From: Heterotrichella gracilis
Taxonomy: Eukaryota > Sar > Xanthophyceae > Tribonematales > Xanthonemataceae
Assembly: GCA_032358255.1 (NCBI GenBank)
Contig: JAULBX010001669.1
Location: 90,066-154,065, forward strand
Direction of reading: 5' to 3'
Length of the DNA stretch: 64,000 bases
A program made the translations under genes and the position numbers. Shown here piece after piece: positions 1 to 64,000 of this stretch. Each line of letters begins with the position of its first letter. Within the stretch, counting starts at the first letter, position 1. The notes under the pieces are model-generated. The model was not told where the DNA came from, did not search any database, and saw only the letters and a program-made list of their open reading frames with translations.

Positions 1-2274
1 GGGTAGGACCGTCCGCTTGGAGGAAGAGAAGTTCAGTCGAGTATGAGGCAAATTTGATCAGCCAGGTGCCTTGTATGTTCTTTTTCAAGTGTGCATCAAG
101 GCAGGTGCCACACAGCCCCAATCTTGCTGAGCATCAAATAGGACATAGGAAATCTACATCTATTTTTTATAGTAAAGCGTTGGGACATGTGCTTTACTCT
201 ATTCCATTATTTTTTAGGCTTTCTTTGGTTAGTTTGCCAGTTCTCCGAGTGACGCTGACTTCAATTTTACTTTTCTCCAGTGTCACTTACCACGAGCATG
301 CAGCACCTCCTAGCCTGGACATAAATGGTCCAGGACCTGCTGTAATATTTATTGTTTGTCAGCCCATCTCCTTTGTTCCTTCCCGAGTTGCCATGAAGCA
401 CACCTATCCACAGTGAATGTCCATCATGAATAATGTATGCACCAGTACTTAACGGATCACTCGTTGAGGCGCAAACTGATAACAACACATTCTGGCTAGC
501 CTTCAAGGGCCACTAGCAAAATTCGAATCAAATGCGCATGCATGCATGCATGCCCACTACGCTTTGCAAGGTTGCCATCATGGGCATTGGTAAAATTCCT
601 GCATTTTTACATCAAATGTCAAATGGCACAGCATGGTACTAACGGGCCGGGCCAGGGTGTGGCACACATCAACTGCATTAGGCCCTCACAGGCATAGTAC
701 ACAAAATAAATAACTCATGGCTGCCGCAGCAAAAAATCGGCCGCTCGCTGCGATGGTTGTGCCACCCACATCCGACAGCGCCTACGACCAAACTTGCATT
801 GTCACTGACCAGCTGGCGTCCTGCACACCAGTGATATGCAAGTTGAACATCATCTATGGCCTCCATAGCAAAAAATATAGCGAGACGACTCTTGAGGAAA
901 CACACGAAAATAGCGTCATGCCATGCCACAACCCTATTGACCAGTGTGCCACAATGGGCTAGAAATCGAAAACGATGTAAGGCAAACTCAGCATACAATT
1001 TGCACAAATTGCAGGTCATATGCAGTTTTTTGCCATGTGACACTCGTCAAGCCCATCGGAAAATTGGAAAAGGCAGGAATTTGCATCATTATCTACCCAC
1101 TGGGGCAGCGCTAACAGTACCTGTGGTTCAGGCAATACGAAGCGTGCAGGACAAAACAGCCTAAACACTGCATATGTGCCAATGTCTGTGGCAGTTCAAA
1201 CATCAATCAATGACGCTGCGCTGAGCATATACTACAGCTATCTTGGCACTCGAGAAACCCCAAAAAAACTACTCACCGCCAAGCTGTTGGCTGTTACTGC
1301 TACATAATCTAGTTGTACAAAAGCAAGGTGTGGATGCATCGACTGCAACCACTCTACTATACAAAATTACTATATGCTGTGCATAAAACCACTGCAGGTG
1401 GCGCATCGAATGCACCAACTGTTGGTCTGGTATTGATACTGAACAAAAACAGTTTGTATCAAAACCATTGTCAAGAAAAACCGGGCTTGACAAAAGGCGC
1501 AGCAGAATCAAACACTGACAAAAGGAAAGCTACCAGGCCACCAGCATCAAACAGGGATTGTGATGCGCCTGGTTACACTGGTACGGCGTCCAATAGAAAT
1601 TCTCGCAGAAAACAAAGTGCCCACCCGGCAAAAAGCTTGGTGTATCACATTAGGTAAACAGTACTCAGTGCTCCGAACCAAATCCCAAGTCCCGAAAAAG
1701 CAAATAATAAGAGGAGATGCGTTTGTTCAACATTTTTGACAACAGCAGCAAAAAGAGGTTGATTGTAAACGGCCAAAGCTGGCCGGTTGTGCATGCATTC
1801 AGCCCTGCCCAAAGTCAGCCAGGCAAAAAGTAGTGCACGCTATCAAGCATGGCAACTGTGCTGCTACATGTAATGGTGTAGCACCACAGCGCACACTCCA
1901 GCAATGACGCCACAGCCACTGCCAATGGACGTGGGCCCTGGCAAAAATTTGTAGCGAAGCCCGCTACTGACAATTTCGTTGTTCAGCCGGCTGCAAACTG
2001 CAACTGTACCTTGAACCCCTTATACATCACCCTCTGCCAGAGCAAAATGGCGCGTATGAACCCCCCCTTGCTACGCGCACCCGTATTCATCACTGGCGGT
2101 CGCTGCCCCCTAGCAGCCACGTGCATCCTCGCCACCAGGCTGCTGGTGCACTGCACCCCTACGCACCCCCTTGCACCCTCCCACTACACTCCACCCTCAT
2201 GCCGCCGTGTGCACCCCCCCCATCATCCTGCACCCATGTGCTTTTTCATGCATCCTCGCCAGCATACAGCACCA
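1..2274. other. Left-flank intergenic sequence
   Basis: No coding region is supported here. Open frames up to about 150 codons occur on both strands but overlap each other, lack recognisable motifs and show no consistent splice pattern. The stretch from about 2000 is C-rich and repetitive and leads into the 3-prime end of the FIG4-like gene on the minus strand. Short A-tracts of the form GCAAAAA recur between 730 and 1950. I see no RNA gene. Confidence 0.5.
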
Positions 2275-5200
2275 CTACGCCGCCGCCTGCACCCTCCCAT
2301 CGCACTCCTCAGCAAGGCTGCGCAGCTCGCTCTCCCCAAACGTGACGCTGCCCAGGATGCCCGCCTGCTTGCGCCAGGTGGACCCCGGACCGCTGTTGAA
2401 CCCCTGCATGCTCACCAGGATGGCGGGGTTGCACAGCGCGCGGTAGGTGCACTCTAGCTCCACCTGCTTGTCGCCCTGCAGGGGGCTCAGCGCGCTGTCC
2501 AGGAACCTGCAGGGGCAGCCACACACCAGGGGTCAAAAAATGGGAAAACCTGAGTATTACGACTATGCATGATTATTTCGGTACAAAAATCTGTTTTTTT
2601 TGTATTTATATAAAAGATATTGAAGATAGTAAAATTGCACGGATAGGATTTCACGCTCCCAGCACCCTACTCCATCTCGCCCCATGCATCCCACCCACAC
2701 AACACTGCCCCATGTGAATAAACCCTAAGCCTAAACCCAGTGCTGCACATTACCGCACGCATGCATTACTATGGAAGCTGTGGATACTTGTTGACCAACA
2801 ACACCCTGACCGCACCTGCTGTACGTCCTGCGCGCCGCGCGCTCCTGCTGCAGCAGCTCGGCCCCATCCACCTGCCCAGTGCGCCACCACGCATTCAGCG
2901 CCGAGGGCAGGCCAAGGTCCTCCTCCCCACGCACCACCGCATCCTCCGCATACAGCACCGAGCGGATGTCCAGCGACCGGGACCGGAACTGCGCTGCGCT
3001 GCGCCGCCGCGCGTCGGCGCCCTCCGGGGCGCCGGCGGCGGGGGGCGCCGGCTGCAGGGCTTGGCTGTTGAGGCTGCCGGCGGACCGCGACGCGGCGCTG
3101 CCGAGGCCCAGCCGGGATGCGAAGGAGAGGCGGCGGCGGGAGCCCAGCGGCACCGGGCCGTCCAGGGGCTGGCTGGTGGTGCGCTGCAGGCCTGGGAGGG
3201 GCACAACGTGTGTTCAGCGGTGTATGTGGCAGGTCCAGCACAGTGCATGCAAAACGTGGGAGAGGGCCACTTGCCAACAGTCATTGGAAGCGTCCAGACC
3301 CTGCAAGTGCAGTGTTGCGATACATGTGCATGGACAAGGTGTAACATAGCACATCGCTCTGCTGCTCATGTGTGTTGTGCACAAAGTGGTCAGCGCACCT
3401 CGGCGTTCCCCGGCCGCATCCCGCAGGCCGCCGTGGCCCAAATCCAGCGGCAGCGACCCGCTGCTGCCAGCCGCCTCAAACCGCTGCAGGCGCGACAGCG
3501 GTAGCGACAGATCCAGCGCGTCGTACAGCGTCACCCCCATGCATTCAGGGTCGGTCAGGTCAGGTGAACCCCTGCGCGCCATCCCCGGCTGCACCGCATC
3601 AAGCACCACCAGGCCCTGCGCATGCGACTTGGAGGGCAGGGGGGCCACTGCTCTGCGCCGAGAAGCAGCTGGCGGTGCGGTGGGTTTGGGTGGCTGCAGG
3701 GTCCTGGAGCTGTCCTGCGGGTGGAGGTCCTTGGCAAGGTCCACCTTGCGCATGCCCAGGGGGGAGGCCAGCCACTGGGGCAGGTAGGCGCGCTGCGTGA
3801 CGGGGGCGGTCAGCCGCACCTGCAGGTGAGGGAAGAGAGGATCACCATGTATCGGTATGTATAATTTGGGCATAGGCAATGTGGGCACCTGTGGCACTTG
3901 TGCATTCTACTGGTAGCTCAGCCACAGCATGTTGAACACCATGCACACATGCCATGGAAACCAGGGCATTATACGTGCATCTCCAGCCCTCACATCATGG
4001 TACACTTCAGCCCATAAGGCGCCCTGCAGCAAGCCCCATGTGCGTAATTGTGTGCGCCTGCTTCTTCAACAGCTTGTCAAACCCTAAATGAAATCCCAAA
4101 CCCTATATTCTACACCCCAAACCCTAGACCCCACCTGCGTGACCGTGTGTGCCTGCTTCTTCAGCAGCTTGTCAAACGACTCCAGCTTGAGGCGCTTGGA
4201 GGTCTTGCCCATCCACCCTAGCCAGCGCGCGCCCCGCGGCTGCTGCTGTCGCCCAAAGGGCGCCTGCGTGCGCGAGGTGGACGCCTCCGACACAGGCGTG
4301 CTGCCGCCGCTGTCGGGATCCCGGGGTTCGGGCACCGCCTTGTGCAGATTGAGCAGCGGCAAATTGGCCACGGGCTGCAGCTGGGGCTTGGCGGGGGTGG
4401 TGGGCGAGGGGCGGGCATCGGGCGGGTGGCGGGGGGCCGAGCCTGTCGAGTCCGATGTGGTGTCACCGCGATTGGCGAGCTCCGCATGGCTTGGGGATTC
4501 AGGGACCGTTGGGAGCGACAGCAGCTGCGATTCGTAGGGCTTGAGGGGCTCTATGTGGGTGGCGACGGGGGCGGGGGCGGGCGCGGGCGCGGCGGCGGGC
4601 GGCGGCGCGTCGGTGTCCGCCGCAGCGGTGTGCAGCGCCAGGTTGTGCTGCGTGAGCGTGGCGAGGTTGGCGGCGCTGGGGGGCCGCGACGACTCGGGAG
4701 TGAGCGGCTCACAGCTGCTGCTGCGGCTGATGCACCCCGCTGAGGTGTCGGTGCTCCAGCCATCGTTGGAGTACTTGGTGGGGAGGCGCATGGAGGCGCT
4801 GGCGGCGGCGGGTGGCTGGGTTGGGGAGGGGGGCGGCAGCGTGCTGGGCTGGGCGGCGGGCTGCTGGGAGGGGCCGCGGCCTGCAGGGGCAGGGTGTGTG
4901 TGTCAGTGGCAAGCGCAAAAGGTCTGGAATACTTGGTTTGTTCAAGCACATGAGGGTTGGTCAGCCGCCAGAGGGCATTGGTCCACCGCCAACAGCAAGC
5001 CTGGCAACGATTACCTTCAATCCCCTGGAACAAACCCTCCAGGACCCCTTCAAAGCAACCATGGTCACCCATGTGCACGTAGTAGTACCTTGGTGCAAGG
5101 AGGCAGAGGCTCTATAACAATCCCCGCAACCCTTTCATCCTTGTATTATACCCCTTCAACAACTCATACTAACAGGCACCAATGCCCATGGGCAGGTAGT

Positions 5201-12252: not shown

Positions 12253-12274
12253 ACTGCTGCATTCTCCCATCGTC

Positions 12275-13627: not shown

Positions 13628-13837
13628 TTCTGCAGTTCCACATTGTCGTGGCTGGCAAAATAGCTGACCAGCATACTTTGTGACTTTTTAATCTGTCAAT
13701 GCCCCCCAAAGTGGCTGCTAGCCTTGTAACAAATACGTACTGGTGTTGAGCACGCGCAGCCAAAGGTGTGCAAATTAACAAGAAAGACAGGGCTGCAGTT
13801 ATATTGGCGCCCAGGAGATCACCGCCACTGCAATGCA

Positions 13838-16059: not shown

Positions 16060-18630
16060 ATGGCGCATTCACACCCAGTCTGCTTCCAATGCACGTCACA
16101 CTCGCAATTCCGCCGCCCACTCGCACCACCCGGCCTCACGAGGTCCAGGCACGCCCAGCGCCATGCCACCCCCCGCCTGGTGTGCCAGCTAGCCACCAAG
16201 TCTCCCGAGGCCAGCATCGACCCAACGGAGACGGAGGTGGCCGCCTTTGCACCCGCCACGGTGGCTAATCTAGGGCCAGGGTTTGACTGGATGGGCTGTG
16301 CAGTTGAGGTAGGGTTTCCACCCAAACCCCAGTAGGGTGCGCCTGGACCACTGTTAGGGTGTATGCTACTGTCGCTCGCTTGCCCTCCATCCCAGCCAGT
16401 GCAGTACCTTTGAATGGGCTTACACAGAGGTACATGCCAGACCCTGCAAAATTGTTCAAATATTGCACACAGGTGCCACACCCACACGAGTGCAGCCCGA
16501 CTATCGCAGGCATTGCTGCAGGCCTATTATATGCACACCATCCACTTACCCTGCAACACACACTGTACTCATCCAATCCACTTGCACAGGGGGATGGCGA
16601 CACAGTCATCGCACGGGTACTGCCGGACCGACCAGGGGAGGTGGTTATCGCCAGCATAGAAGGGGATGGCGGGCGCCTGTCCCTCATCCCTGCTGAAAAC
16701 TGTGTTGGCATCGCAGCCCTGGAAACCCTTAAGCTGCTGGGAACACCAACCTGTGGCATCGAGCTGTCACTGAAAAAGGTACACCCTGGCTAGGGTTTTC
16801 CTTAACTACCTAGGTAGCTAGGGTATGCACTGACACTGACACTGACACTGACACCGCCACTACCACATATGCACTGCCACTGCCTGTGCCACACCCATGT
16901 GCACAGGGTGCTACCGTCTGCATTACGACTTCCCATGCGTATCAGGTATGTCGCCATCCATTCGCAGTTGGCTGCCTATTGCCACCACCCCACCTCCACC
17001 CACCCCCTCCCCTCCTACCTCCCTTTCAGGGTCTCCCCCTGGGCAGTGGCCTGGGCAGCAGCGCGGCCAGCGCAGCCGCGGGCGCGTGGGCGGTGAACAT
17101 GCTGTTTGGCTGCCCCCTGACCAAGCACCAGCTGGTGTACCCTGGGCTGCAGTCCGAGGCGGCGGTGAGCGGGTACCATGCAGACAACATCGCACCCGCG
17201 CTGCTGGGGGGCTTTGTGCTCATCAGGTGCGGCCAGCGACTAGGCAATGTTGGGCCTAGGGTGTATGATGGCGACTATTAGAAGGGGTCCATGTGGGTCC
17301 ATGTGTCGATCGACCACCGTGAACACATGGTTATTCCCAACTCAGTGCATCCCGCCCTCGCACAGCACATGCTTGCTCACGCCACACGACATAGTCCTCA
17401 CCACAGGGGACATGGGTCCGGCGTGCAAACACTCAAACACTGCTCAAGTACCCTTCCTCGCGGGGCACTGTGCCTCGTCCCCCTCCACTCACACATTCCC
17501 AGCAGCTGCCACCATCTCACCCTTCCTCCCCACCTCTTCCAGGAGCGCCGACCCCCTGGACATCCAGCAGCTGCCCTTCCTCGGCCAGGACCTGTGGTTT
17601 GTGCTTGTCAACCCGGTGTTTGAGGCACCCACTGCACAGATGCGCGCGGTGCTGCCCAAGCAGGTGGACATGAGCCAGGCAATAGCAAACTGCGCGATGG
17701 GCGGGTCGCTGGTGAGAACCTAGCTAGGGTTGGAAGGGGGAGAGTGGTACTGAAGAGAACCTATTTAAGGGTATAGGTGTTAGCTGGAGCAGGGTCGCTG
17801 GTGGGAACCTGGCTAGGGTTTGGGGTGGGGGTGCCAGTCTGGACTTGCTCAGGGTATTGTCTCGTTATACATTTGGATTTGGATAAGAGTCCCTGAGTGC
17901 TATCAAAATCAATAAGGAACCTGTGCAACGGAATGTTTAAGGGAGAAATGCATTTGACCTATTTCAGCAATTATATTGGTTTTAAATTCCGAACTGATCC
18001 CTGCAGGTGGCTGGCATCCTCACCGGCAACGTGCCGCTCATTGGCCGGGCGCTGGACTCCGACGTCATCATCGAGCCCGTCAGGGGGCCACTCATCCCAG
18101 GGTTTGCGGCGGTCAAGGCGGCTGCGCGCGCGGCTGGCGCACACGGGTGCACCATCAGCGGGGCGGGGCCCACAGCGGTGGCCATTGTGGATGACCCAGT
18201 CGTGGCGCAAAAGGTGGGTACGGTGGGGTGTGGGGGGCCGGGGCAGGATGGATTTTTGGCAATTGGGAGCGCTTCCTTCCAGGCGGCAAATGCTCTAGCG
18301 GGGTGTAGGTGGAAGCAGGGGCGTGTGTGTTTGATGGCAGGGCCTGGTGCATCACCATGGCAGATGACGCACAACGTTGGATCTGGCATAATGCACTGGA
18401 TTATGCATGTCCATTCCGGGTAGTGTGAGCTGTCGCATGCTTTGCATACCATAAGGATAGAAAAGTACAATGACCGTGCATATCATTCCTTGGTCGCTAT
18501 CGCCGAACAATGGTTCCCCACGGCGCAGGTGGCAGACGCCATGTGCGCTGCATTCCGCACCCACGGCCCCCTGGAGGTGAACTCGTGCAAGATTGTGCGG
18601 CTGGACCCCGTGGGGGCAAAGGGACTATGA
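16060..18630 (+). CDS. HSK: Homoserine kinase, plastid-targeted
   Basis: GHMP kinase that phosphorylates homoserine on the way to threonine. Six exons: 16060-16308, 16590-16778, 17030-17226, 17543-17711, 18007-18213, 18529-18630; 370 residues. The first 50 or so residues are rich in Ser, Arg, His and Pro with few acids, as in a chloroplast transit peptide. Then come APATVANLGPGFDWMGCA, the ATP-binding glycine/serine loop GLPLGSGLGSSAASAAA, SGYHADNIAPALLGGFVLIR and the C-terminal GCTISGAGPTAVAI, all family signatures. A 39-nt open stretch before the ATP-loop exon would keep frame but breaks the conserved KKGLPLGSG join, so it was left in the intron. Confidence 0.95.
17703..17823 (+). repeat. 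Copy of homoserine kinase exon 4 (fourth coding exon) end in its intron
   Basis: The exon end and donor at 17703-17733 recur at 17792-17823, offset 89 nt, in the following intron. AGGGTTT telomere-like units accompany both copies. Confidence 0.7.
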
Positions 18631-45100: not shown

Positions 45101-48100
45101 TCTATCACACCCCTCATGTGCAATCACCCGCCCAATCGCGCCCAATCACACACTCACCTTTTTAAAATCCGGTGGCACCCAGTCTTCTACATCCACCGGC
45201 TGCCCCAACAGGTCAGTCACCACATCATCCTTGGTCACTGTGCCCCTCACAGCTATCACCAGGCACTGCCGCTCGCGGTCCAAAACCACGAGGTAGGGTA
45301 ACGCGCCCCGGGTCATGTTCACATAGCTGGTGTACAGGATGTCGGGCTTGGACACGTCCAGCACACACTGGATGTTGCGCAGGTTGCGCTGCTTGCAGTT
45401 GCAGCCCCCCTTCATGCATGATGCCGCGCAAAACTTGAACGTCCTCTGGCCGCATGTGGCGGGCCTGTGGAAGGTTAGCACCATCAGAAGTAAGTAAAAG
45501 TGTACCTTGCATCCGGGCACTAGTCACATGTCCAACGACCATTTGCTGAAAATGACACAAGAGCCCAATAACCATTACCTTCCACACAACCAATTGCTTT
45601 CACAACAGTTCACACGACCATTTGCATTCACAAGTCCAAGCACCATTTGCTCAAAATGAGATTTTACAAGGCAAGGCAACAGCCCTTGAGACCACTCACC
45701 GTCCTTTATTCCATGGCGTCTCCTGCAGTCCATATGCAGCAGTGGCGTATCGCAGCCAATGCTGAGCCTCAAGCATGGTGGCCTTGTCAACATGCTCCCG
45801 CTTCCCTGAGAGCATTATCAAAAGCCTCCTGGGAGCAATGTATAAGGATGGTGCTGCTGCAGCACTAAAATACCTTGTGGAATACTGCACTGGGTACTTC
45901 CAACAGGGTTTGCTGCCCATTGGTGCAACATTTTTGCCGTTTTCTTTTTCCAGGCAAGCGTAATTTGACAGTATTGGGACCATATTATTGTTTCTTACTA
46001 CCCTTGCCTTGCTTGAAAAATAGTGTAGCTTGCCAACTATTGATGCACGCACACAAAGCTAGTGGGTTTCTGACCCACCTGTGTAAAGGTCCGCCACCTC
46101 CTGTGACGTCAGCCCCTCCACACAGCCCGCCATGCTGCAGGAAGGGGTCACCAGCTGAGACTTGAGCCCCGCAGTGTCCAGCCTGGCTTGCAAGTACAGC
46201 GTGTTCTTGGCATCGGCTGTGGTCTGTGCGGCTCCCAGCGCTTCCTTCAGGATCTGGTCGCTGGGCGCCTCCTCAGCCAACCGATCCAACCGATCTGCCA
46301 AAAGTAGTTGGTTTGTTAGTTACATGCATTCCAGCAATACAACTCAGATTGCTGAATTATAAATGCGCCTGCCATTATCCATCAGTCTTGCACATTGCGC
46401 CCCCAAGCACTTTGGTCCTGCACTGTTCATGTCATTTTGTTAACGATCGGAGGATCTGCTTAGTCAGGTCACCCCATGTGGCCTTAGGCTTACCTACCCC
46501 CTTGCCCCCTGTACCCTACCCAAAAATTACACATTTTGCAGCCAACTATCCAATGGAAGACCTACACGTCCCAATCGCTCAGCCATGTGGCCCTAGGCAT
46601 ACCTGCCCAAAAGTTGCTGTCTTCCCTCCCCGGGATGTGGGCGAGAGTGGTGAGGGCTCTGCTTCCCAGGCGCACAGGCGATGTGGCCACCTTGGAGAGG
46701 CCAGACACTGAAAAGGACAGCAGCTCAGAGGGTTGCAACCTGAGAGGAGGATGCAAGATCAAGGGACGGGACTTGAAGCTTGTAAAACAATCGTTACAGG
46801 AGGCAGCAAGGGCAACCCTAAAACCCTAATCACTACATACAAATCCCCAAACAGCAGCCAGCAAGGGCAACCCCGAATCCTGACCACTACATATTAAACC
46901 CCAAACAGCATCCAGCAAGGACAGACAACCAGACAAGGCAACCAGGGGAATGCAGCAGATCCTCATACTACAGCAGATCTTCATTCGGGTTTAGGGTTAA
47001 GGATTCAGGTTTCAGGGTTTAGGCTTTCAACCTGCTGGGGCGCTTCCCGAATGGGTGTGTGGTGCTGCTGCTCGATGGCGAATAGCTGGTGCTGGACGCA
47101 TTTCCGCCAGATTGGTATGGCTGACTACCCACGCTGTTGAGTGACTCATTGAACTTCAACCCAGCATGCGAGGCGCGCCCGTCGATGTTGCTGGACTGGC
47201 GTGCATCTGTGCCAGAGTCCTGAAGTGGCTGGGCGTTTCCTGTGGGCTGGACCACTTCCACCGCATGCACTTTGAGCAGCTGGAAGGGGTTGGACACCAG
47301 CGCCGACATCTGCCCCCACCGCGCCTTGAGCGAGGACCCCACATGCTGCATGCTCATGGTCTCGTACTCCTCGTCCTGCGCCAGCATCTGGTGCACATAC
47401 TCAGCATCCCGCAGCTCTTCAGTTTCCATGGTGGCTGATAGGGCTGGCTGGGTTGGGGCGGGAGCAGGCTGCGCATGCTGCATCTTGCCTGACATAATCC
47501 GGCTCAGCATGCTGGTCTTCTGGAGCGATTGCTGTTTTTGGAACGCCGGACCCATGGCTGCGCCCTTGGATGGTGGAGCAACAACCTTGTAGCCTGCAAA
47601 TGCAACACCTCAGGTCCAACCTCAAGTCATTGAGACCGCTCTGCACTCACCTCTCTTGTGCGTATCCAGATAGGTTTTAACACATGCATGTTCCAATGCA
47701 CTTGTCAATGCCACCTAAATACCGAACATACATGGGCGCATGCTGAACCCTCGAAATTATATGGTAATTATTAAGGAATTGAAAAGGAACCTTGATAAAT
47801 ATTTTTCAGCATGCGATTATCACCAGGTACTGCCATGGGTTCAGTACCTTGCGCCATCATTTCCTTGATAATGGCTCGTTTCCGCTTCTGGTTCTGGGCC
47901 GCCCCCACCAGGAACAGCCCCAGCAGCCTGTCCGATATCGACAAGTCAACTTTGCCAAACACGCTCTTCAGGGTCTGTGCAATCTCCCCCGCAGCAGTGG
48001 TCCTGCACAGCACACCGTGCCTCACGCATGGAAAAAGCATTAGTCGTAACCAGATGCATGATCTGCACGCTTTGACATTGAGTACCAAGGCCCCTCCCAC

Positions 48101-50080
48101 CCCTCGTCTGCATGCCTGTTGATGATTGACCAAGAAGGCCCCTCCTACCCATCATATAGGCAATGAAGCTGCCTTAGGATGTGTTGTCTGTTTTCAATGA
48201 AAGAAAACATCCCTTGAACAAGGTCGCCATTATACCGGCGTTTATTTCATATTCTTCATTAAAAATCTCAACTTTTAGCTGCAAGGTTTGCGGCAATTGT
48301 TTTGCTCCCATGCTATAACGCAACCCAAAAGTAACACCTTTCATCTGCACGCCTGACACTGATCAACTGACAAGGCCCCTCCCACCCATTACATACATGC
48401 ATCCCACTTCCTTTTAGCTGCACCCACCCGTCATCTGCATGCTCCTCCTTGACAATCTTCCCGCATCCCAGCAAGCTGCTGCAGCCCTGGAAGGACTTCT
48501 CCCACCCCTCAAGCTGATCGTAGTCTGCACACCAGGTCATGGTCAGGACGCTTGCTGTGCGGGTAGTGCAACAATGCAGAATTTTCCTGTTTGCGGGTGC
48601 TTTGAGCCACGCCACACAAGAAGTAAAAATGACCAATAATTGTTTTGATTAGATTTATAACCAAATTATTAGTACATTGCATCACAATGACGTGTGGCGT
48701 AATCCACTACTCCAGTGAAAACTGCTCCTTGCAAATGCAGCTGTAATTGGTCATTGCCACTGTAATCTGGGCAATTGCAAATGTGTCTATAAAATTGTAT
48801 TTGTTTAATTCCTGTAATTTATGGCAAGAACAGGCAGCAGGCACGGGTGCAGGCTTGCTTACCAGGAAACCTGCTGTAGGTGATGTAGAGGAACAGCATT
48901 CTGACTCCCAGTATGACCCACGTAGACACAATGAGAGCCAGCAGGAAGTCCCTTGACTCGTACACATGCCCATCCAGCTCCACTTTGCAGTACGCACTGT
49001 GCGGGTACACCCAGGCTGTGCCAAACACTGGGGGACATAACAGGCATCATCAGATGGGAGCGAGTTTGAGGTTAAAAGTATGCTATGTGCGTTTCTGTGC
49101 ATCTCAAGCCCCGGCGGTGCATCATTTTGCGTTCGACAGACCAGTGCGTGGGCTAAATGGTAATCCCTGGACCCACACAGCCAATCCCGTGTGTGTACCC
49201 CTGTACACGCTGTGCCAAACACTTGGGGACACAACAGGCATCGTCAAGTGGGTTCTATTGACAGCATTCATCCAGTTTGTGTGGCTTACTACTTATGGGT
49301 TTATCCTGGTACTTTTATATTGGACTGTGAGCTACAGGATTGCATGGCATTGCAACTGGCATGTAGGGAACAGTAATTGTCATGCGAGGCAGCCGTTCCC
49401 ACAAGCGCACCGTTCAGCAGCAGCACAAAAATCGCCGCCAAGCCATGCCCCACCATCAGTGCGGATACGACTTTCCGTTTGGAGCTCTCAAAAGGCCGCC
49501 CTGTAGTCCACAATGCACCACGGTGAGGAGCCAGCCAACCATGGCAAAAGTGACGTGAAAGGGGTGGTGGATAGGGGGTGGGGGGTGGGGGGGCGACAGG
49601 CAGGTGGTGGTGGAGGACCATCCGCTGGTTAAATTTTAGTGATGGGGGTGCATTGCTACAATGTTGGGGCAGGTGGAGGCGGTGGAAGTGCAGGTGGTGG
49701 TAGCCCCAGGCGCTGGACTGGCGTAAGTGATAGAGTGGGTGGTGGGTGACGGGTGGGGCAGGTGGTGGTGGCGAACCAGGCACCGCCCCGTCACAACCAA
49801 CCACTATGGACATACCTATAGACCCCACGATGATCGTGGCCAGCTCGATGCCAAAGGTGATGTGGAACAGCAGGGACATTACCGCCACAAACACCGTCTG
49901 CTTTATTCGCTCCTTCTCGCTGCAGTTAGGGTCCTTGAGCGTCACGCCAGATACCCCAGCCGTCTCCCCCGTGAGGGTAATGGACCATAAACCGTGGAAA
50001 ACTGCTTGCGGGAAGAACAGCAGTGGCAGGTCGTCTGAGGCCACATGCCACCGCCTGCCCAACCAGCGCACCCCTGGCAT
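42101..50080 (-). CDS. sn-1-specific diacylglycerol lipase (DAGL-type), four-TM lipase class 3
   Basis: Sixteen exons (minus strand): 49816-50080, 49411-49500, 48863-49027, 48428-48524, 47848-48002, 47032-47593, 46603-46739, 46079-46294, 45700-45853, 45158-45464, 44448-44538, 43891-44118, 43479-43653, 42958-43086, 42534-42651, 42101-42280; about 1022 residues. The start MPGVRWLGRRWHVASDDL resembles animal DAGL alpha, followed by four hydrophobic helices (about 18-36, 62-88, 100-125, 145-168). Next come LSISDRLLGLFLVGAAQ, EAQHWLRYATAAYG, a Cys-rich insert, and IAVRGTVTKDDVVTDL. The catalytic triad is Ser804 in GHSLGAG, Asp856 in VGKDVVPR and His994 in HHAPY. A large Ser/Gln-rich insert occupies about 265-440. 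It would hydrolyse diacylglycerol at the membrane. Confidence 0.93.
42745..42820 (-). repeat. Copy of part of DAG lipase exon 14 in intron 14
   Basis: GAGCGGTTGCTGCGC and about 50 flanking bases match exon 14 (42985-43047). Offset about 227 nt. Confidence 0.75.
43080..43325 (-). repeat. Tandem duplication across the acceptor of DAG lipase exon 14
   Basis: Two units of about 118 nt, each starting GAGTGCCTGCGGAGG (exon start plus acceptor) and ending GTTGTCGATAGCC or similar. Confidence 0.85.
44366..44470 (-). repeat. Copy of DAG lipase exon 11 end and donor
   Basis: TGCGCACCTTGGTCGAACAG, the exon end plus donor on the other strand, occurs at about 44367 and 44441, near-identical over 30 nt. 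Confidence 0.9.
44905..45261 (-). repeat. Duplicated end of DAG lipase exon 10 with donor
   Basis: About 107 nt coding RGTVTKDDVVTDLLGQ to DFKK (45154-45261) recur at 44940-45047 with only a few changes; a third fragment lies at 44905-44940. The frame in the copy is open. Confidence 0.93.
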
Positions 50081-54920: not shown

Positions 54921-57900
54921 ATGCTGCGTGTGCTTGTCACGCAGGCCTGGGTTGGCTCGCCTTTGGGAGTGTATGGAAACATGGTGCAGCCCTATGGCCA
55001 GCCCTTGTCCAGCAGGGATGCAGTGGCTGCCTTCCAGTCAGAGGGCTGTTTGGACCTCGGCAACTTCGTCACAGACCTGTTGGGGTCTGCTGCAAGCACA
55101 CCCAGCCAGTCAGACTCCCTGGGCTTTAGCTCCTTGCAACAGGGCTCGTGGCTAGGCAAGGCAGGAGTGCCACAGCCACTGCCACTGCCACCCACCACAC
55201 AGCACCAGGTACCTCACCACTTCTTCCAGCTGGATACCCTATGCGCTTCGCCCTCTGGAGACCACGAGAGGCAGGGTGACGCTGGCTGCAGCAGAGCAGA
55301 CAGGGACGCCTCCCCAGGGGAGGCACAAGACAGACCCTGTCCTGCGCAGCACCAGCCCCTGAAGAAGCGTGTGTGGAAGAAGAAGGACCCTGCAAAGAGC
55401 CGCGTAGCGCAGCAGAAGTGGCGAAGCAAGCAGAAGGCACGTAATAGCATGGCATTGCTCGCCTGCTAGTGGGTTCTGATAGTGGGTCTTATTTACCCTA
55501 AACCCTACACAAGAGGCCTGCAGCAAAGTCTCTCACGAGAACCGAACCCCTGCTTCAGGAGCATGGAAGGCCCCTCACCAGACCAAAACCCTTATTCCCT
55601 AAAACCCTCTAAACCCTACAACCCCCTGCAGGAGAAGGGTGTGGAGATATCGCGCGAGATCGAGCTGCTGACAGCAGAGCTGGGCCAGCTTCGCACCGAG
55701 AACCAGCAGCTGAAGATGGAGTCAAGCACCATGGAGAAAACGATCATGTGCCGCCAGAACGCGCTGTCGAGCCTCAAGCGCCTGCAGGAGGTGGGTGGCA
55801 GCCTGTGCGTTGCTGTTTTTGGCGGTTGGGTGGGGCTTGGGTGGGTTCTAGCAGCCTGCTGTGGCCTACTGCAGGCTGAGTGTGGTGTATATAGCGAATG
55901 CATGAGCATGACATCGACATGCTTGCGGCTTGTGGCTGATTGTTGCTCTCACGAGCTTGGTCTCCAGGCTTCTATCACCAGCTCTGTCGCAGCTCTCGTC
56001 CTGACTTGAGTCCGATAGAAGCGGCTGCTCCTTTGTCAATTCATTGTATACACTGCATGCATCCTTCTGGAGGCACGCATGTAATGTAGTGTGGTGTAGC
56101 GTGATGAAATGTATGTTATCTGCATGTATGACCCCGCCCTGCCTGTTGTGCACAGAAATGTGTGTTATCTGCATGTATGACCCCGCTCTGCCTGGTGTGC
56201 ACAGAAATGTATGTTATCTGCATTTATGACCCCGCCCTGCCTGTTGTGCAAAGCCCCCCCTGGATCCCGCGCACCCCTCCGGCAACTACCAGGCAGCTAC
56301 CAAGCTGACCACGGGCGAGGTGACAGGCAAGGCGCTGATGGAGATGTTCTACAAGGAGAAGGTGGAGCAGGCAGCCTCGCTTTTGGTCAAAATAGATGCG
56401 TATGGAGGTAGGCGGGTGGCATTGGTGGGGGAAGCCATAGTCATGGGAGGCAGCGACTGGTCATGCTCTTGTCTTTCAACTTGACGGCCCTGTCGTCCGT
56501 GCAAGGCGACGGATGTTTTGGGTGCCAGTCATAGGGAGTATCGGAATGATCTAGGTAATGCAGCACCGGTAAATTGCATTTGCTGAATTACAAAGTCAGT
56601 TGCATGTAGAATTAATTTTCTTCTCATATTTTCGTACTTGGTCATTCAATTGATACATTTTGATGCGGCAGGCACCCCTACCCGCGAGGACTTGGAGGCG
56701 GTGCAGTGCCAGCTGGGCGGGATGGTGCGCACATGCACCGGGGCCATTTGCAACATGTCCAACATGCACTGGGGCGATGTGCAACATGTCCAACATGCAC
56801 TGGGGCGATGTGCAACATGTTCAATATGCATTGGGGCCATGCAACACCACATGCCTCGCCCTGTCTCCCAGGCTGCATCCACGTGGTGGGTTCCACCCGC
56901 CATGCACCAGGGCCATGCATCCTGCCGCAGAGCTGCTAGTGCACACACACATCGCTGACACCTTGCACTGCCCGGCAAGCCCAGAGACCATGCGCCCTGA
57001 TCACGCATAGCTTGAGGGTTTAGGGTTTAGGGTCCTGCCTACTCAGTCGCTCCTAGCCACCCAATAGCTGCACGCACCTCGGCACCTGCACTATACCCAT
57101 GCCCCCCCGCCATCCATAGCATGTACTTACCCCCTGGCACCTGTCACCTAGGTGCTCATAGCGCCTAGTGCCGCACTGCACTACTTGCACCCCGACACCT
57201 GCACTGCACCCATGCGCTAAGGCCACACTGTACACCCCTTGCCACAACCCATCAAACCCTAGGCATCACTGCCGGCCCAGCCCCTCACCCCGCCCCACCC
57301 CGCCCTGCAGAGCAACCCCCTGAAGGAGTTTGTGATGTACATGAAGCCGGAGCAGTTCCACCGGTGGATTCTGGGCGCTGCGCACCCCGGCATGGGCCAG
57401 TCGCACCCCAGTGCCGCTGAGGAGAGCGCTGAGGCGGAGCACTACAACCAGCTGCTGGAGGTGCTGCAGCTGTCAGGTGGGGGGATTATATGCTTTATAC
57501 ACCAGAAGCAGTTAGACCAAAGTAGTTCTTTCGGATGTATTTTACTTGGTTTTTTCTTTAATTGCAAAAAGTGTCTTTATAACACATCAAATTTTACGAG
57601 TAAGTGATTCAGATGGGCATTCATGACATTTTTTAACGGACTCAGATTGGGACAACCACAATGTGGCACGGGCAGCAATTGGTTACGATTAGCGCAATGA
57701 CAGCATTTATTCTCATGTGTCTCACCGGCCTCATGTACCAACCCCCCATTGCCAGGCGAGCAGCAGGACATGATCCTCCAGCTGCGCAGCAACCTCTCGT
57801 ACAAACCCTAAACTCTAAACCCTAAACACCCCCGTGTTGCCAGGCGAGCAGCAGGACATGATCCTCCAGCTGCGCAGCAACCTGCTGACCCGCATGCGCG

Positions 57901-58382
57901 CGGTGCTGGGCAGGCGCAGGGAGCTGCTGGAGCGGCTGAAGAGCACGGTGGCGGGGGCCAGGGGGGTGAAGGGGGTGGATGCACAAGAGGAGGGGGAGAA
58001 GGAGAATGAGGCGCCTGGGGAGGTAGGCTGGTTTCTATTCTTTTCCTTATCATGCATGGCAGGGCACAAATTGCTCTTGCATGCATCGGCGGGGTTAGGA
58101 ACCGCTTTGCTCGGGAGTTGCCTAAAGGTCTTTTGCCGTGCAGCAGGAGCATTTGTCTTTTAATTAAATAATATTTATCTGCAGGTGCCGTCGGATTGGC
58201 TGCTTGATTTCAAGGCCAACCTGTGGGACGAGCACGCCGCGGTGACTGCCTTTGTGAGCACCCTAGGGTCTGGGATCCTGGACCCTGTGCAGCACATGCG
58301 CATCATCATGCACAGCTACCCCAATGTGCCTGACGCCCTCATCTTTGCAAACCTCATCGCCGTGCACCGCCAGCGGAGGTAG
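54921..58382 (+). CDS. bZIP transcription factor, tandem paralogue 2, divergent basic region
   Basis: Seven exons: 54921-55436, 55632-55790, 56254-56407, 56672-56724, 57311-57476, 57844-58022, 58185-58382; 474 residues. NFVTDLL (49-54 region) matches the paralogue N-terminal motif. The basic region is SRVAQQKWRSKQK (160-172): the invariant bZIP Asn is Ser. The zipper follows as LTAELGQLRTENQQLK. The C-terminus NLWDEHAAVTAFVSTL and HSYPNVPDALIFANLIA parallels paralogue 1. Intron 1 appears to be GC-AG. The first ATG lies just after a TATATAA, so a second in-frame ATG at 54981 may be the true start, giving 454 residues. Exons 3, 4, 6 and 7 have adjacent decoy copies. Confidence 0.87.
56105..56253 (+). 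repeat. Three tandem 50-nt units ending at bZIP2 exon 3 acceptor
   Basis: Units starting GAAATGTATGTTATCTGC at 56105, 56155 and 56204. Each ends GCCTGTTGTGCA plus CAG or AAG; only the last (AAG) is the inferred acceptor. Confidence 0.92.
56748..56840 (+). repeat. 33-34-nt tandem repeat after bZIP2 exon 4 donor
   Basis: About 2.5 copies of a unit containing CAACATGTCCAACATGCACT and GGGGCGATGTG. Confidence 0.9.
57749..57886 (+). repeat. Decoy copy of bZIP2 exon 6 start
   Basis: TTGCCAGGCGAGCAGCAGGA and the next 25 nt are identical at 57749 and about 57837 (the real exon). CCCTAAA units separate them; the upstream copy runs into a stop. Confidence 0.95.
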
Positions 58383-58600
58383 GCCCAGGCGGAGCAGGGG
58401 AGCCAGCAGTAATGGTTGCGTGGGGCTGCGGATGCCGGGAGCAGTACATGGCTGCGCTGGGGATCGGCGCCGGGACATCGCCAGCTACCACCACCATCAC
58501 TGGTGTTGCCGCGCATCCACCGATGTACAGCTACCCCAATGTGCCTGGCGCGCTCACATTTGCCAACTTCATGGCTGCGCATTGCCAGCGGCGGGGCGGC
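58311..58600 (+). repeat. Duplicated bZIP2 last-exon end and 3-prime flank
   Basis: AGCTACCCCAATGTGCCTG and about 60 following bases (exon end, 58317) recur at 58512 with about 20 percent divergence, and the flanking bases match as well; unit near 197 nt. Confidence 0.85.
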
Positions 58601-60399
58601 CAGGGCAAAGCAGGGGTGCCAGCATTGATGGCGCTGCACCAATGGGTGCATTGGGGCCGGCGCATGCTGAGAGCGCAGCATGGTTGTCTTGGTGACTGGA
58701 AAGTTATTGCAGCGGTCACAACACATTTCTGCTGCCGTGGTGTGCTTATTGATGGCCGATGTGTCAGTCATGGCGAGCCAGTGGAGGATATGATTTGAAA
58801 CAGCGCGTGGCAAGAGTGAGTTACGTGGCAAGATGCACAGGGCGAGGCGCTGGTCAGCTGATGTCATGAGCAAACAGTTATGGGTGTTCAGCAATTTACG
58901 GAGTGGCAATACACAATTCTTTCACTCTTTCTGATGGCGTTCTCTAAGGTACAAATCAGGTTTGGAGGCGGGCATGGGCAGATACCAACGCATACCTGGT
59001 CCCTGGGCATGTGGACATGTTGCCCTTGACGCACCATGGCCTCAGATCCACAGTATCGCAATTTTAGCACAGTGTCATCAGTTTGCTGAATAGTTTACAG
59101 CATTGTTTGCTGGCAGAGTGATGGATTTCTCAGCGATTCCTGGGTGGGTTTGGCGACACGCTTGCCGCCCCCTGCTATGATCTCTGGCCTGTGATCTCTG
59201 AGCTGTGACCTTGTCCCTTACATATACCAAGGGGTGGACAGTGCCCTGGGCTGATGGACCTTGTGAAGGGCCCTGGTTGCAACCTTCTGGAATATAATGG
59301 ACCCTTACGAACTTGACCTTCTCTCAGCAAGGAAGGTCCCTGCAGCCAGCGTGGCACTGGTCCCCGTCCAACCTGGTTGTGTTATATCTCTTTTGATACC
59401 ACGTGGGCGCTTTTGGCTTTTCGCACAAACGGCACAAGATGCATGTCTAGCCTTTGGCTGGCCTTTGGCAACGATAGTAAGGCGCAGTATTCGGGTAAAA
59501 CGGCAAAGCCGTGTTGCTGGTTGAGGTTGTTGTCTCCCTCCTGTGTACGAGGGTTGAGTGCGCTGCCCGCTGGCATGTGAAAAACCCGCCAACCGGTTAG
59601 CTAACCAGGTTTGCAAACAACGCAAGGCTTGGACTTGCTCAGTTGCTGACTCCGCACCCCACACTCGTACGTTGAGCCAAACTCCAAGTAGTGTCAAGTA
59701 CCCACGCTTGCAGACCCACGAGCGCACGGAATCCACGCGGAGCCATCGGATCCCCTTGTGGGTGGTGCCACAACGCCACAAACTCCGACTCGTGGCCTTG
59801 CCTGGGTTGCCAGGACGCAATTCAGGGACCTCCACGGTGCTGCAACAAAGATTGGAGCTTGGAGTTGGCTGTAGTGCTGGTTGACACGGTGTTTTTTCGT
59901 TGTCAACCTGCCTTGCCGCGAGGTACAGGTACGAACACCATAGCACACCCTTAGCACGCTATACAACCATACCCTGGCGATACAACAACCCACCTTGCGT
60001 CTTAGTTTCTCCCCACGGTGGCAACGTCTTGAACCTGCGCCACGGCGAGGCTGCACTGAACCCCACTGGCATGAGGGCAACCTAGTCCTAGTGTTTGCTA
60101 CAATTCTGTGCCTACTCCTGTTGCTTGGCCAGTTACATGCCTCCTGCGTTGCTTGCCCCCAACCCAAGGCCTTGTATGTTCCCGCTGCACCCACCCTCGC
60201 TGTCCAGCCAAACCTATAGTCGTGGCCCAACCCACATCCTTGGGTCTTGCTCCTAACCCCACCCCCTCCTGCTGCTGCAGCCCTGGACAGAGCTTGCCCA
60301 CTGCAAGCGTATGTTGAGCTACACCTGTCACCACCACCGCTTGGCCCCTGCCTACAGCTGGGCCCTAAATATCCCGTAGCTGCATAGCACACCAGCGCC
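58383..60399. other. Intergenic region between bZIP2 and bZIP3
   Basis: 2.0 kb. The first 300 nt are a degenerate copy of the bZIP2 3-prime end. The rest shows no supported coding region; a 304-codon minus-strand frame reaching into bZIP3 exon 1 is a shadow. Confidence 0.5.
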
Positions 60400-63300
60400 A
60401 TGGGGACTTTAATGGCCAGCCGCTCCATGGAGGTTTCCCTGGGAGACCTGGAGTTTGATTCTGCGCTGGAGAGCTTCCTGAACGACCTCCTGGACCCCAA
60501 CGCCCCGCTCATCAACCCTACCACAGCCTTCACCGACCAGCCGTCCAAAGTTTCCACCCACCAGCTGCACCAACCCACCATCATCCCACCAACCCCCTTC
60601 TCAGCCAAGGCGCTCTACTCATTCGACGACCTGCCAGACGTCTCAACTGCCCTCGCCTCCTCATCAAGCAGCGAGGACCAACAAGCAAAGCTTGCTTCTT
60701 TCACCGGCAGCTTCTCCACACAGCCCTACCAGCAAGTGGCAAACACCGTCCTCACCGCCTACCCCACCGAATCTGGGGTAGGAGGGCACCTGTACGACCC
60801 CATGCTGGGAGGTGGAGCAGACTTCTCGGGAGTGATAGAGGTGAAGATCGAGGATGAGGAGGAGGACAGCCCTGTGGTGAGTTCCAGCCTGCGGGGGAGT
60901 GGCAAGAAGTCCAGCGGCAAGTCCAGCGGTCCAGGCAAGCTGCCCAAGGTGTGGAAGAAGCCCCCCGAGAAGAACAGGGAGGCGCAGAAGCGGTTCAGGG
61001 AGAAGCGCAAGGTGGGGGCCAGTCACTGAACCCTAACACTAAACCCTAAACTTACCCCTACCTAGACCACAGGTGTCCACAGTATAAGCGGTTCAGGGAG
61101 AAGGTGGGAACCAGCCCATGAACCCTAAATGGAACCCTAGACCATAGGTATCAACAGCAAGTGTGCAAGAGCACAAGCGGTCCAAAGATAACTGTGTAAC
61201 TTTTCCCTTGCCCTTTTGAGGGAGCGCCTGTCTTGGGCACAAGGCTCAATGCCACGCCAGCAAAACCCTAAACCCTGCCTCTGTCCACAGGCCAAGGCGG
61301 AGACCATGAGCGCACAGGTGTCTTCCTTGGCCGATGAATTGGCAGGGCTGCGCACCGAGAACGAGCGGCTGCTTACCCAGTCCCGCACCATGGAGTTCCA
61401 GCTGCAGTGCAAGGACGCGGTGATGGCGGTGATGAAGAAGGCAGTGGAGGTGGGTGGGGTGGGTGTGGGTGCGGGTGTGGTACGGGTGGGTGAGGTGGGT
61501 GTGGTATCGTTTGCTGTGGTGGATAAGGTGTTGGTGAGGGTGGGGGGGGGGGGAGGGGGCGCTCGTTGAGTAAGCACCATGCTTACATGTACCAGTGGTG
61601 TGTCAGGGTTCAGGATTTGGGTTGTTACAATGTAGCTGGGGTGGGCGCAAGCTGTGGGGGCTTTTGCTGGATGAACGCCACCAGCCCAGCAGTGCACACC
61701 CTCCCCCTACGGCTCACCCACCATTCCCGCCATACCCTTAAACCCTACACCCGTGCAGCAACACTCGGCGGAAGAAGACTCCAGGATCCTCGAGGTGCTG
61801 TCCCGCGTGAAGGGCCGCTCCCACCACACCCTGGCTCTCATGAGCCCTGCTGCGGGGTCCAGCGGGGTGCAGCCCCAGCTGCTTGAGCGGTGCATGACTG
61901 GGTGGAGGCGCATGGTGGAGCAGCTGGCGGACAAGCTCATGGCCATGCCCGATGAAGGTGGGTGGGTGTGGTGGAAGTGGTGTGGGGTTGGACGAGGGTT
62001 TGTTCATGGGAAGGGAAAGGGTTAAGAGGCGCATGATGGAGTAGCTGGCGGATAAGCTCATGGCCATGCTCGATGAAGGTTGGTGGGGGGTTAGGGTTTG
62101 GTTCAGGGTCCAATTATCAGGCGATTCATTATGGCTTGGTGTAAAGTATTTTATGGTTTTAGTGAAGGGTGTTTGAGAATAACCATCAAGAGATCGCCGC
62201 GTTTTGAGGTTTGGTCGCCATTGACCCTTTCCAGTGTTGCTAATTGCGCATTCCCTTTTCTACAGGCGCCAGTGATCAAGACCTGGCCGAGCTGCAGGAA
62301 ATCATCGACAGATCGGTACGAAACCAAGCCCGCCCTGCCCACACCCTGCTTGTGTTATTGTTCTCGTTTCCATGCGTTGCTGGGCAACCCCTTCAAACTC
62401 TTGCAAACACATCTGCCCTAACCAGGTTCTGCTTGCATCCCGTCTACGTAAACCCTAAGCAGGTTTTGCTTGCACCCCTTCTACGTAAACCCTAACCAGG
62501 TTTTGCTTGCACCCCGTCGACTTAGACCCTAAAATGACGCTTACGCAACCCCTCTGCCTCACAAGGGCACAAAAATCAAAACCCTTTTGGCCCCCAACCA
62601 CCCCCAAGCCGTCACCAGCCTGCCTCTGCCCCCATTGGATATGCGCATCTGAATCTCGGTGTGCCGGCAGCCCATCCAATACAAATCCTAACGAAAACCC
62701 TAAATGAAGACCTGCCCCAAATTTGCTGCCTCACAGCCCAAATGATCACAGAACCTGCATCCCGTCACCATCTAGCCCTTCTTAAACCCTCACCACCCCC
62801 CCTCCCACCCCCCAGGAGTATCAAGAGATGCGCATCCTGGAGGTTGTGTGCTTGCAGCCCATGGCATGGAGCCGCTTTGTGCTGCACACATCCGCGCCGG
62901 GCCTGAGCGCCGAGGCTATTCCTGCACAGGAGGAGCAGCGATGGAGGGACCTGCTTGAGGTTGTCAAGCTCACGCCCTGCCAGAAGGCGCAGCTGCTGCT
63001 CATGAGGTGCGGAAAACCCTACATTAGACCCTTGGGTCACGTGCGCTCTCAGAAGGGTTTAGGGCCTAGGGTCGATTGTGAGAAGCGCACGCCCTGCCAG
63101 AAGGCGCAGCTGCTGTTGATGAGGTGCGGGAAGCAGTACATTATTATTTTTTTCAGTTTTTGTGTGTTACTGCTTGCTGCCCACAGCTATGCTTGTAATG
63201 TACGTACCCTCTGAAACATTTTTATTTTTGTACATTCCTAATTACTTGCGATCATCTCTTAAACATAAATTACACCACATGTGGTAACATGTTTCCTGCC

Positions 63301-64000
63301 CCCGTCCCCAGGGACCAGTGGCTTGAGCGCATGGGCCGGGTGCTGTGCGCGCGCCGCTCCCTGGTGGCTCGCCTGCGCGTGCTGCTCACAGACTCCACCA
63401 CACAAACAGATCATGCGCTCAAGGAGGCGCAGGTGTTGGGGGGCCTGAATGCAAGCCAGAAGCTGCAGGTGAGGGGTCTGGGCCGGGTCAAACTGGTAGA
63501 GTTCTGTCTCTCCCGTAGCGTTGCTCGCACCCCCTTTGGAAGTTCTAAATCGGAAGGCCATTTCTTTGAGTATTTTTCCAATTCCCGTCACTTGTCTTTA
63601 TCCCTCTTTAGGTTATTTCTGGGTCCTATGTTCCTACCCAGGGGAACACCCCATATTTTCACACCTCGATTGTTTTGCAGACAATACACATTGGCCCTTT
63701 GTTGCCCACACCAAACGCTGCCATACCACCACCACCAGCGCATATTGCATTGGTAAGAGCCATGATCCCTCCTTTCCCAAATTCCCCACCTCCTCTTTCA
63801 CTTCTGCAGAGCATGGTGTCTGAGAGGGCGCTGATGGGCCAAAAGTGCCGCACCCTCATCCCGCTGGAAGAGATCATGGAGGAGTTTAAGGCAAACCAGG
63901 TGGGGCCTAAACCCTAAACCCTAGGTACGGGTAGCATGGAGGTAGCCTAAACCCTAAACCCTAGGTACAGGTAGCATGGAGGAGTTTGAGGCAAATCAGG
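60400..64000 (+). CDS. bZIP transcription factor, tandem paralogue 3 (runs off window)
   Basis: Eight exons seen: 60400-61011, 61291-61449, 61759-61957, 62266-62315, 62816-63006, 63312-63468, 63681-63752, 63810-63899; about 510 residues so far. The C-terminal helical end present in paralogues 1 and 2 is missing, so at least one exon lies beyond 64000. ESFLNDLL (24-31) is the shared N-terminal motif. An acidic patch (IEDEEEDSP) precedes a Lys/Ser/Gly linker and the basic region NREAQKRFREKRK (192-204), a full NxxAQxxFR match. The zipper is SLADELAGLRTENERLL. Introns 1, 3, 5 and 8 carry copies of exon ends. Confidence 0.88.
61083..61130 (+). repeat. Copy of bZIP3 exon 1 end
   Basis: AGCGGTTCAGGGAGAAGGTG repeats the end of exon 1 but lacks the 6 nt coding the last residues. 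Confidence 0.85.
62025..62085 (+). repeat. Copy of bZIP3 exon 3 end
   Basis: GCGCATGATGGAGTAGCTGG and following match the exon end (61909-61960), with a premature stop in the copy. Confidence 0.88.
62425..62525 (+). repeat. Tandem 35-nt repeat in bZIP3 intron 4
   Basis: Three units of CCAGGTTTTGCTTGCACCCC followed by TCTACGTAAACCCTAA, near-identical. Confidence 0.85.
63085..63132 (+). repeat. Copy of bZIP3 exon 5 end and donor
   Basis: ACGCCCTGCCAGAAGGCGCA and the next 20 nt repeat 62971-63012, offset about 116 nt. Confidence 0.92.
63930..64000 (+). repeat. Copies of bZIP3 exon 8 end at window edge
   Basis: ATGGAGGAGTTTGAGGCAAA recurs after the true exon end (63875-63899), each with CCCTAAACCCTAGGTAC spacers. 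Confidence 0.85.

Follow-up and report, generated by a model that had tools for sequence, protein, structure and literature searches.

Local Direct Duplications at Splice Junctions and the Probable Origin of Decoy Exon Edges in Introns of Heterotrichella gracilis

Results

Genes and Repeats of the Window

Ten typed gene models in the window, i.e., the whole stretch of 64,000 nt considered here (C19:90066-154065 of the 68.5-Mb assembly, which comprises 903 contigs), are backed by Pfam, with matches to Syja_N (SacI), a YchJ_M-like family, 3Beta_HSD, Coatomer_E and GHMP kinase as well as to Band_7 (HIR), glycosyltransferase 2, Ysc84 and Vps52 (both in one fused model) and Lipase_3. The bZIP_1 score of the window bZIP model lies slightly under the cut-off. 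The names homoserine kinase, HIR and SYLF come from an earlier note on this DNA or from background knowledge. Positions 50387-63899 apparently hold several bZIP-like genes in tandem, seemingly paralogues, which the gene finder fused into one model and whose introns contain several exon-edge copies.

The nuclear sample consists of the window and 19 other stretches of 10 kb, together 254 kb of the 68.5 Mb; 28 such stretches had been taken, nine of which come from the bacterial contig C1 and were left out. Gene models were predicted ab initio on both strands with a hidden-Markov gene finder that uses GT-AG introns and was trained on the sample sequence itself, and all splice junctions given here are predictions of this gene finder, not RNA-based. 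It returned 46 gene models in the 254 kb, some of which fuse neighbours, with 505 exons; the predicted median exon is 124 nt and the predicted median intron 261 nt long, and the predicted donor and acceptor are MAG/GTRVG-like and TGCAG/G-like, respectively. Ahead of the junction counts, apart from one on ungapped segments given below, 23 predicted exons were taken out as decoys.

Direct repeats were seeded at offsets of 20-600 nt, scored without gaps under low-complexity masking with a score of at least 17, and then realigned with gaps and merged. At this score the 254 kb contain 195 raw local direct segments, compared with 16 at a control distance of 2.5-3.1 kb. Once redundancy was removed, 179 direct segments remained, against 9 inverted ones of comparable range and equal score, and gapped realignment and merging left 116 pairs, 39 of them in the window. 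Sixty-seven of the 436 predicted introns contain a duplication pair, 7.6% of the intron bases lie within a copy, and 56 of the 872 predicted junctions, among them 23 of the 220 that lie in the window, are accompanied by a copy of the exon edge in the adjoining intron. Hence, the central observation of the earlier note, that exon edges are copied in direct orientation into neighbouring introns, is confirmed. One 10-kb stretch (L016, C15:100001-110000) holds 18 duplication pairs and 14 telomere motifs and is far denser in both than most of the sample.

In the window, decoys occur in the genes for the Sac phosphatase, homoserine kinase, HIR (SPFH), the glycosyltransferase, VPS52 and the class-3 lipase, in an unnamed gene at 19.7-24.1 kb and in the bZIP genes (Table 1). 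As had been noted for HIR, VPS52 and the DAG lipase, copies of exon starts and of exon ends indeed coexist within one gene: HIR has acceptor and donor copies (junctions 26243 and 26965), VPS52 a donor copy (36280) and acceptor copies (36751 and 40223), and the lipase donor copies at 43479, 44448, 45158 and 46603 and acceptor copies at 43087 and 49028. It also proved correct that COPE, the sterol dehydrogenase, YchJ and SYLF lack copies, as zero pairs fall within 5,383-17,702 (the first three) and 30,931-36,182 (SYLF).

Table 1. Positions of exon-edge copies and related arrays in the window. Donor and acceptor positions are those of the predicted real junction.
Gene	Positions	Strand	Feature
Sac phosphatase	4034..4177	-	donor 4135 and decoy, GT changed to AT
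Homoserine kinase	17703..17831	+	donor 17712 and decoy
Unnamed gene	21511..21742	-	acceptor 21572 and decoy (78%)
HIR	25964..26266	+	acceptor 26243; exon 5' edge copied three times upstream in the intron, ~76-83 nt apart
HIR	26949..27157	+	donor 26965; exon 3' edge copied in tandem (101-104 nt), GT retained
Glycosyltransferase	29717..29891	-	acceptor 29770 and decoy (90%)
VPS52	36183..36484	+	donor 36280; 153-nt unit in contiguous tandem (73% identity), GT of the decoy changed to GG
VPS52	36581..36845	+	acceptor 36751; first 95 exon nt copied at 94%
VPS52	38566..38745	+	70-nt unit x2.5 with exon edge (ALFDLHMGS)
VPS52	40021..40308	+	acceptor 40223 and upstream decoy
Class-3 lipase	44356..44470	-	donor 44448; 40-nt copy at 97%
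Class-3 lipase	44890..45259	-	donor 45158; 113-nt copy at 94% (102 exon and 11 intron nt)
Class-3 lipase	48999..49252	-	acceptor 49028 and decoy
bZIP gene	57739..57883	+	acceptor 57844; exon part 40/40 identical, intron part 76%
bZIP gene	58298..58686	+	donor 58379 and diverged decoy (82%)
bZIP gene	60988..61159	+	donor 61012; ~98-nt tandem unit, telomere-type CCCTAA motifs in both copies
bZIP gene	61905..62087	+	donor 61958; 62-nt copy at 92%
bZIP gene	62966..63143	+	donor 63007; 61-nt copy at 89%
Intron-only array	62416..62532	+	three 37-nt copies, each starting CCCTAA; telomere motif within a duplication

In the three HIR copies at 25964..26266 the exon edge is 92-96% identical and the intron part 82%, and at 36581..36845 of VPS52 a looser alignment recovers a full tandem unit, the intron part of which has decayed faster than the exon part; the bZIP site at 60988-61159, when aligned in the same looser way, resembles such a full decayed tandem unit. 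In the lipase (44890..45259), the 113-nt copy lies beyond a 100-nt spacer and is followed by a partial third copy of 44 nt. The VPS52 array at 38566-38745 was read as coding by the gene finder.

Position of the Duplications Relative to Splice Junctions

The placement count used only the 257 of 482 exons that have a strong coding signal after removal of the 23 decoy exons, and 29 of the 116 pairs were left out (13 with a low-confidence exon, 10 with both copies in exons and 6 in intergenic DNA). The others comprise 52 junction-spanning, 29 intron-only and 6 exon-interior pairs, against 21.1, 51.5 and 14.3 under random placement of the same shapes. The scarcity of wholly exon-interior copies is what one would expect if a unit has to extend into the intron. 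With a null junction share of 0.29, the odds ratio for junctions is 4.4. When ungapped segments are counted without exon removal, 42 junction and 54 intron-only cases face a null ratio of 0.54, and because the counts differ in this way before and after removal of the decoy exons, the size of the junction effect hinges on that step.

From our point of view, random placement is the wrong null, as it is based on the detected piece and not on the duplicated unit, whose length we take to be close to the offset (median 108 nt). If a unit as long as the offset is placed wherever it fits into the intron as it was before the duplication, 47.1 of 87 pairs are expected to touch a junction, and 58 of 87 do. 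We further simulated decay: intron copies mutate twice, the rate for the exon copy was set to 0.22 times neutral, and 0.11 indels were allowed per substitution, a ratio taken from the decoys. Among pairs at least 88% identical, the junction share is 23/42 = 0.55 (CI 0.39-0.70) versus a simulated 0.40-0.46; among older pairs it is 35/45 = 0.78 (CI 0.63-0.89) versus 0.41-0.51. Since the junction excess resides mainly in the old pairs, survival accounts for more of it than targeting does. Exon-edge copies stay recognisable for longer than so simple a scheme permits. All point estimates of the junction share exceed the model, and its underprediction for old pairs may mean either that survival is stronger than modelled or that there is some real junction preference. 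The enrichment over shuffled positions that the earlier note had proposed to test for therefore stands in its simple form (odds ratio as above), and is not clear for recent duplications once unit length and a frozen exon copy are allowed for. A simulation with short pieces, which gave a junction share of 0.12-0.26 and would enlarge the enrichment, was set aside as it ignores unit length.

The alternative that duplication is directed to junctions, with breaks or slippage concentrated there (e.g., at G-rich donor ends or through transcription-linked breaks), could draw on the odds ratio against random placement. Resolved by identity, these odds are 2.9 at 93% or more (6 junction to 9 intron-only pairs, P 0.045), 4.3 at 88-93%, 6.2 at 80-88% and 5.5 below. 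Moreover, among recent pairs those at exon edges exceed the intron-only ones in length (median 74 vs 38 nt, P 1e-4), for which a single process makes no obvious prediction, and the exonic extent of the copies is unevenly spread over the unit (n=51, mean 0.39, KS P 2e-6). However, with the offset as unit length the expectation already rises to 47.1 of the 87 pairs, against 58 seen, the recent pairs fit this geometry within error, and by eye the limits of the copies are found at many distances from the junction. We consider targeting unlikely as the main cause, although it is the likeliest of the alternatives.

Intron Length and the Mode of Duplication

Introns with a duplication have a median length of 383 nt and those without one of 249 nt; when the offsets are subtracted, the former value becomes 233 nt. 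The proposal of the earlier note that introns grow by local duplication is supported by this difference, which concerns the 67 of 436 introns with pairs, even though the length gap alone is no proof of growth, as longer introns also are larger targets.

The direct orientation and local range of the copies, together with single-copy content in the one spacer searched, speak for local duplication as opposed to transposition. The spacer at 45047-45146, when searched genome-wide, matches only itself, and a mobile element or introner was set aside on the basis of this spacer. Among the 44 high-identity pairs, the two copies abut directly in just 12 (spacer of at most 5 nt), and the median spacer of all 44 is 38 nt. 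Overall the spacers lack residual homology (6/35 vs 12% in the control; 2/41 at P<0.05, mean z 0.11). That they are the decayed remainder of a tandem unit was consequently rejected as a general explanation, with homology no higher than in controls, while it is true at 36581-36845. Given spacers between the copies, simple tandem duplication needs later deletions or filler DNA; both deletions inside introns and filler DNA at the break are possible.

Spacers without homology are also what templated insertion would leave, i.e., copying from nearby sequence by polymerase theta or by snap-back. Such a route should yield inverted copies too, and the 9 inverted segments against 179 direct ones, together with the rarity of exon-interior sources, make us regard it as improbable. 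Among the routes that we found, fill-in of staggered breaks is the best documented for duplications of this kind: small tandem duplications arise through such fill-in, insertions of <100 bp are discussed, and natural human and plant insertions are cited as evidence for the model (PMC8355091).

Fate of the Decoy Splice Sites

Two of the 62 junction alignments are gapped exactly at the site; GT or AG is retained in 49 of the remaining 60. Twenty-three of these 49 intact decoys equal or outscore the real site. The median score of the decoy sites, 5.6, is nearly that of the real ones, 5.9. The earlier description of the copies as carrying decayed splice sites was right in so far as some have lost the dinucleotide, and overstated for the majority. 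GT is retained in 25/33 cases (24.2 expected from each pair's own identity) and AG in 24/27 (19.3 expected); there is thus no sign of splice-site purging in the decoys, and the excess of AG is slight.

Mismatches between exon and decoy amount to 117/1026, 117/1028 and 194/1027 at codon positions 1, 2 and 3, respectively (0.114, 0.114 and 0.189; 3,081 exonic nt). Since the rates at positions 1 and 2 are equal, the decoy copy is unconstrained, and the third-position excess is due to silent substitutions in the real exon. With every pair counted only once, there are 37 exonic gaps, 29 of which break the reading frame. This pattern led us to reject mutually exclusive or alternative coding exons, for which coding constraint on both copies would be expected.

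One could imagine that selection retains the copies because, as alternative or poison splice sites, they regulate expression, and the frequent retention of intact and well-scoring sites as well as the slightly raised AG retention could be read in this way. Against it stand the neutral codon-position pattern and the frame-breaking gaps. Among the 49 intact decoys, offsets that preserve the frame are not enriched: 11 are divisible by 3, and splicing at the other 38 would shift the frame. Reading on from an intact decoy would run into an in-frame stop in 38/49, compared with 37.8 for random intron segments of equal lengths, and an open frame would remain in 3/49. The protein families point in the same direction: VPS52 trimmed of the extra copies (36581, 38566) and of a neighbouring predicted 5-residue mini-exon gives 218 bits in Pfam in one stretch, versus 193.6 bits split over two stretches when untrimmed; HIR has its full Band_7 match without the copies; and Lipase_3 scores 43.2 bits without the copy (44890..45259) and 41.3 with it, a small gain. 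No relative of solved structure was matched that would display the lipase copy as an insertion. Regulatory decoys are therefore quite doubtful in our eyes, and the idea of a reservoir of alternative splice sites, raised in the earlier note, is not borne out.

An artefact of assembly or collapsed haplotypes is very hard to credit, as the copies diverge by as much as 30% and also carry indels, with only 1 of 116 pairs identical, the units vary from place to place, 18 of 19 other nuclear loci have pairs, and 80 kb of the bacterial contig in the same assembly contain 4 raw local segments versus 195 in the 254 kb of nuclear DNA.

A Telomere Motif Within Introns

The motif AAACCCTAA occurs 97 times in the 254 kb, where ~1.4 occurrences are expected by base composition (~70-fold), and in the predicted models of the window and L003-L021 90 of them are intronic, 1 is exonic and 6 lie elsewhere. 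As CCCTAAA arrays cap contigs such as C70, C140, C609, C717 and C770 at their starts, AAACCCTAA is the organism's own telomere repeat. In the predicted introns, AAACCCTA is found 148 times in 147 kb, i.e., 1,008 per Mb with both strands counted; for comparison, a survey of telo boxes gives 151 per Mb for AAACCCTA(A) in introns of Arabidopsis and 72 per Mb in those of rice (PMC3022908).

With telomere words masked in duplication finding, 33 of 80 merged motif sites lie in or near a duplication versus 13.2 expected. Introns that contain both number 26 versus 16.0 expected (P 0.0015, stratified by locus and length-weighted). Leaving out the window gives 16 versus 11.2, which the null still covers (maximum 18); leaving out L016 gives 20 versus 11.4, and leaving out the four densest loci 16 versus 8.0. 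This suggests that motif and duplications may share an origin in break repair. The motif does not clearly favour the duplication seams: copies hold 35, spacers 16 and flanks 3, against 30.5, 16.9 and 6.7 expected.

A role of the motif as branch point only was rejected, since both orientations occur (50 and 40 of the 90 intronic cases). Sense AAACCCTAA is found near intron ends (up to 50 nt from the acceptor, 15 cases; up to 50 nt from the donor, 13; interior, 12), and the antisense form is mostly interior (3 acceptor, 5 donor, 25 interior); on the acceptor side P is 0.006. Antisense copies may give rise to unwanted AG or GT sites, or the sense form may serve as a branch point.

Discussion

The existence of local duplications in this nuclear genome sample, their bias toward direct orientation, the neutral drift of the decoys, the difference in intron length and the trend with age are established by the present analysis, while we infer their origin in break repair. 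In our judgement, the decoy exon edges are probably neutral scars of local direct duplication, plausibly through break repair, that have been kept by differential survival and lengthen the introns. According to this explanation, short stretches of nuclear DNA (~20-200 nt) would be duplicated locally and in direct orientation, most plausibly in the repair of staggered breaks. Duplications within exons would mostly be purged, and those in an intron or across its edge would survive, as one intact junction is left and the insertion is spliced out. With introns of ~250 nt and offsets of ~100 nt, a large share of the surviving units would straddle a junction. The exon-side copy would then be frozen by selection while the intron copy drifts, and exon-edge duplications would remain recognisable longer than intron-only ones. 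The outcome would be longer introns with non-functional decoy exon edges.

One could speculate further that the introns are a record of double-strand breaks repaired with the machinery of chromosome ends, in which duplications and telomere motifs are two outcomes of one lesion and together one of the main ways in which introns grow. Where staggered breaks leave 3' overhangs, fill-in would give local direct duplications including the exon-edge decoys; now and then telomerase would also lengthen the overhangs and add one to three telomere units. We regard this extension as tentative and rather unlikely as a whole; if the telomere link were true, the introns would record break repair that involves telomere enzymes.

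Introner elements likewise bring about sequence-driven intron change in algae and other protists, and they form dispersed families. The case described here may differ from them, as the one spacer searched is single-copy in the genome. The duplications attributed to staggered-break fill-in by CST-Pol alpha-primase are short, direct, local and sequence-independent as they are here (PMC8355091). Most pairs here, in contrast to those, are old and not strictly adjacent, and for this organism the pathway is a candidate; of two features of fill-in, the direct orientation is clearly found and adjacency without a spacer is not. In an intron gain of the potato RdRp gene, the duplicated segment likewise crosses an intron-exon boundary and carries splicing signals (PMC4974935). 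There a new intron results, whereas here existing introns lengthen and none is inferred to be new; in VPS52 and the lipase, joining the exons on either side of the decoy gives a family match as good as, or better than, the one with the decoy included. Telo boxes and short interstitial telomere motifs have AAACCCTA(A) in common with the motif described here, but they concentrate in the 5' UTRs of Arabidopsis and rice (PMC3022908), whereas ours are intronic, spread along genes and linked to duplications. In mammals, short internal telomeric repeats at repaired breaks are attributed to break repair (PMC2246262). The motif found here is, in keeping with interstitial telomeric sequences, identical to the organism's own telomere repeat. 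Among the listed open-access titles and beginnings of abstracts on junction-crossing duplications, intron gain or length and telomeric motifs, no report of such a pattern in an alga was found.

Overall, the sample offers a readable case of intron lengthening, with many introns, insertions of graded age and a source next door. It also raises the question how the spliceosome tolerates near-perfect decoys ~100-200 nt from the real sites, which provides a natural test of site choice. For similar claims it advises caution, as geometry and unequal decay can produce much of an apparent enrichment at splice junctions.

Apart from this, contig C1 (894 kb; L002 and L022-L029) is bacterial, with a GC content of 33-35% and dense long frames, and is probably derived from an associated bacterium or symbiont. 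Nine of ten frames searched have Pfam matches, including OmpA, CcmF, RecJ, polyphosphate kinase and SpoIIE, and two adjacent M48 peptidases are among them.
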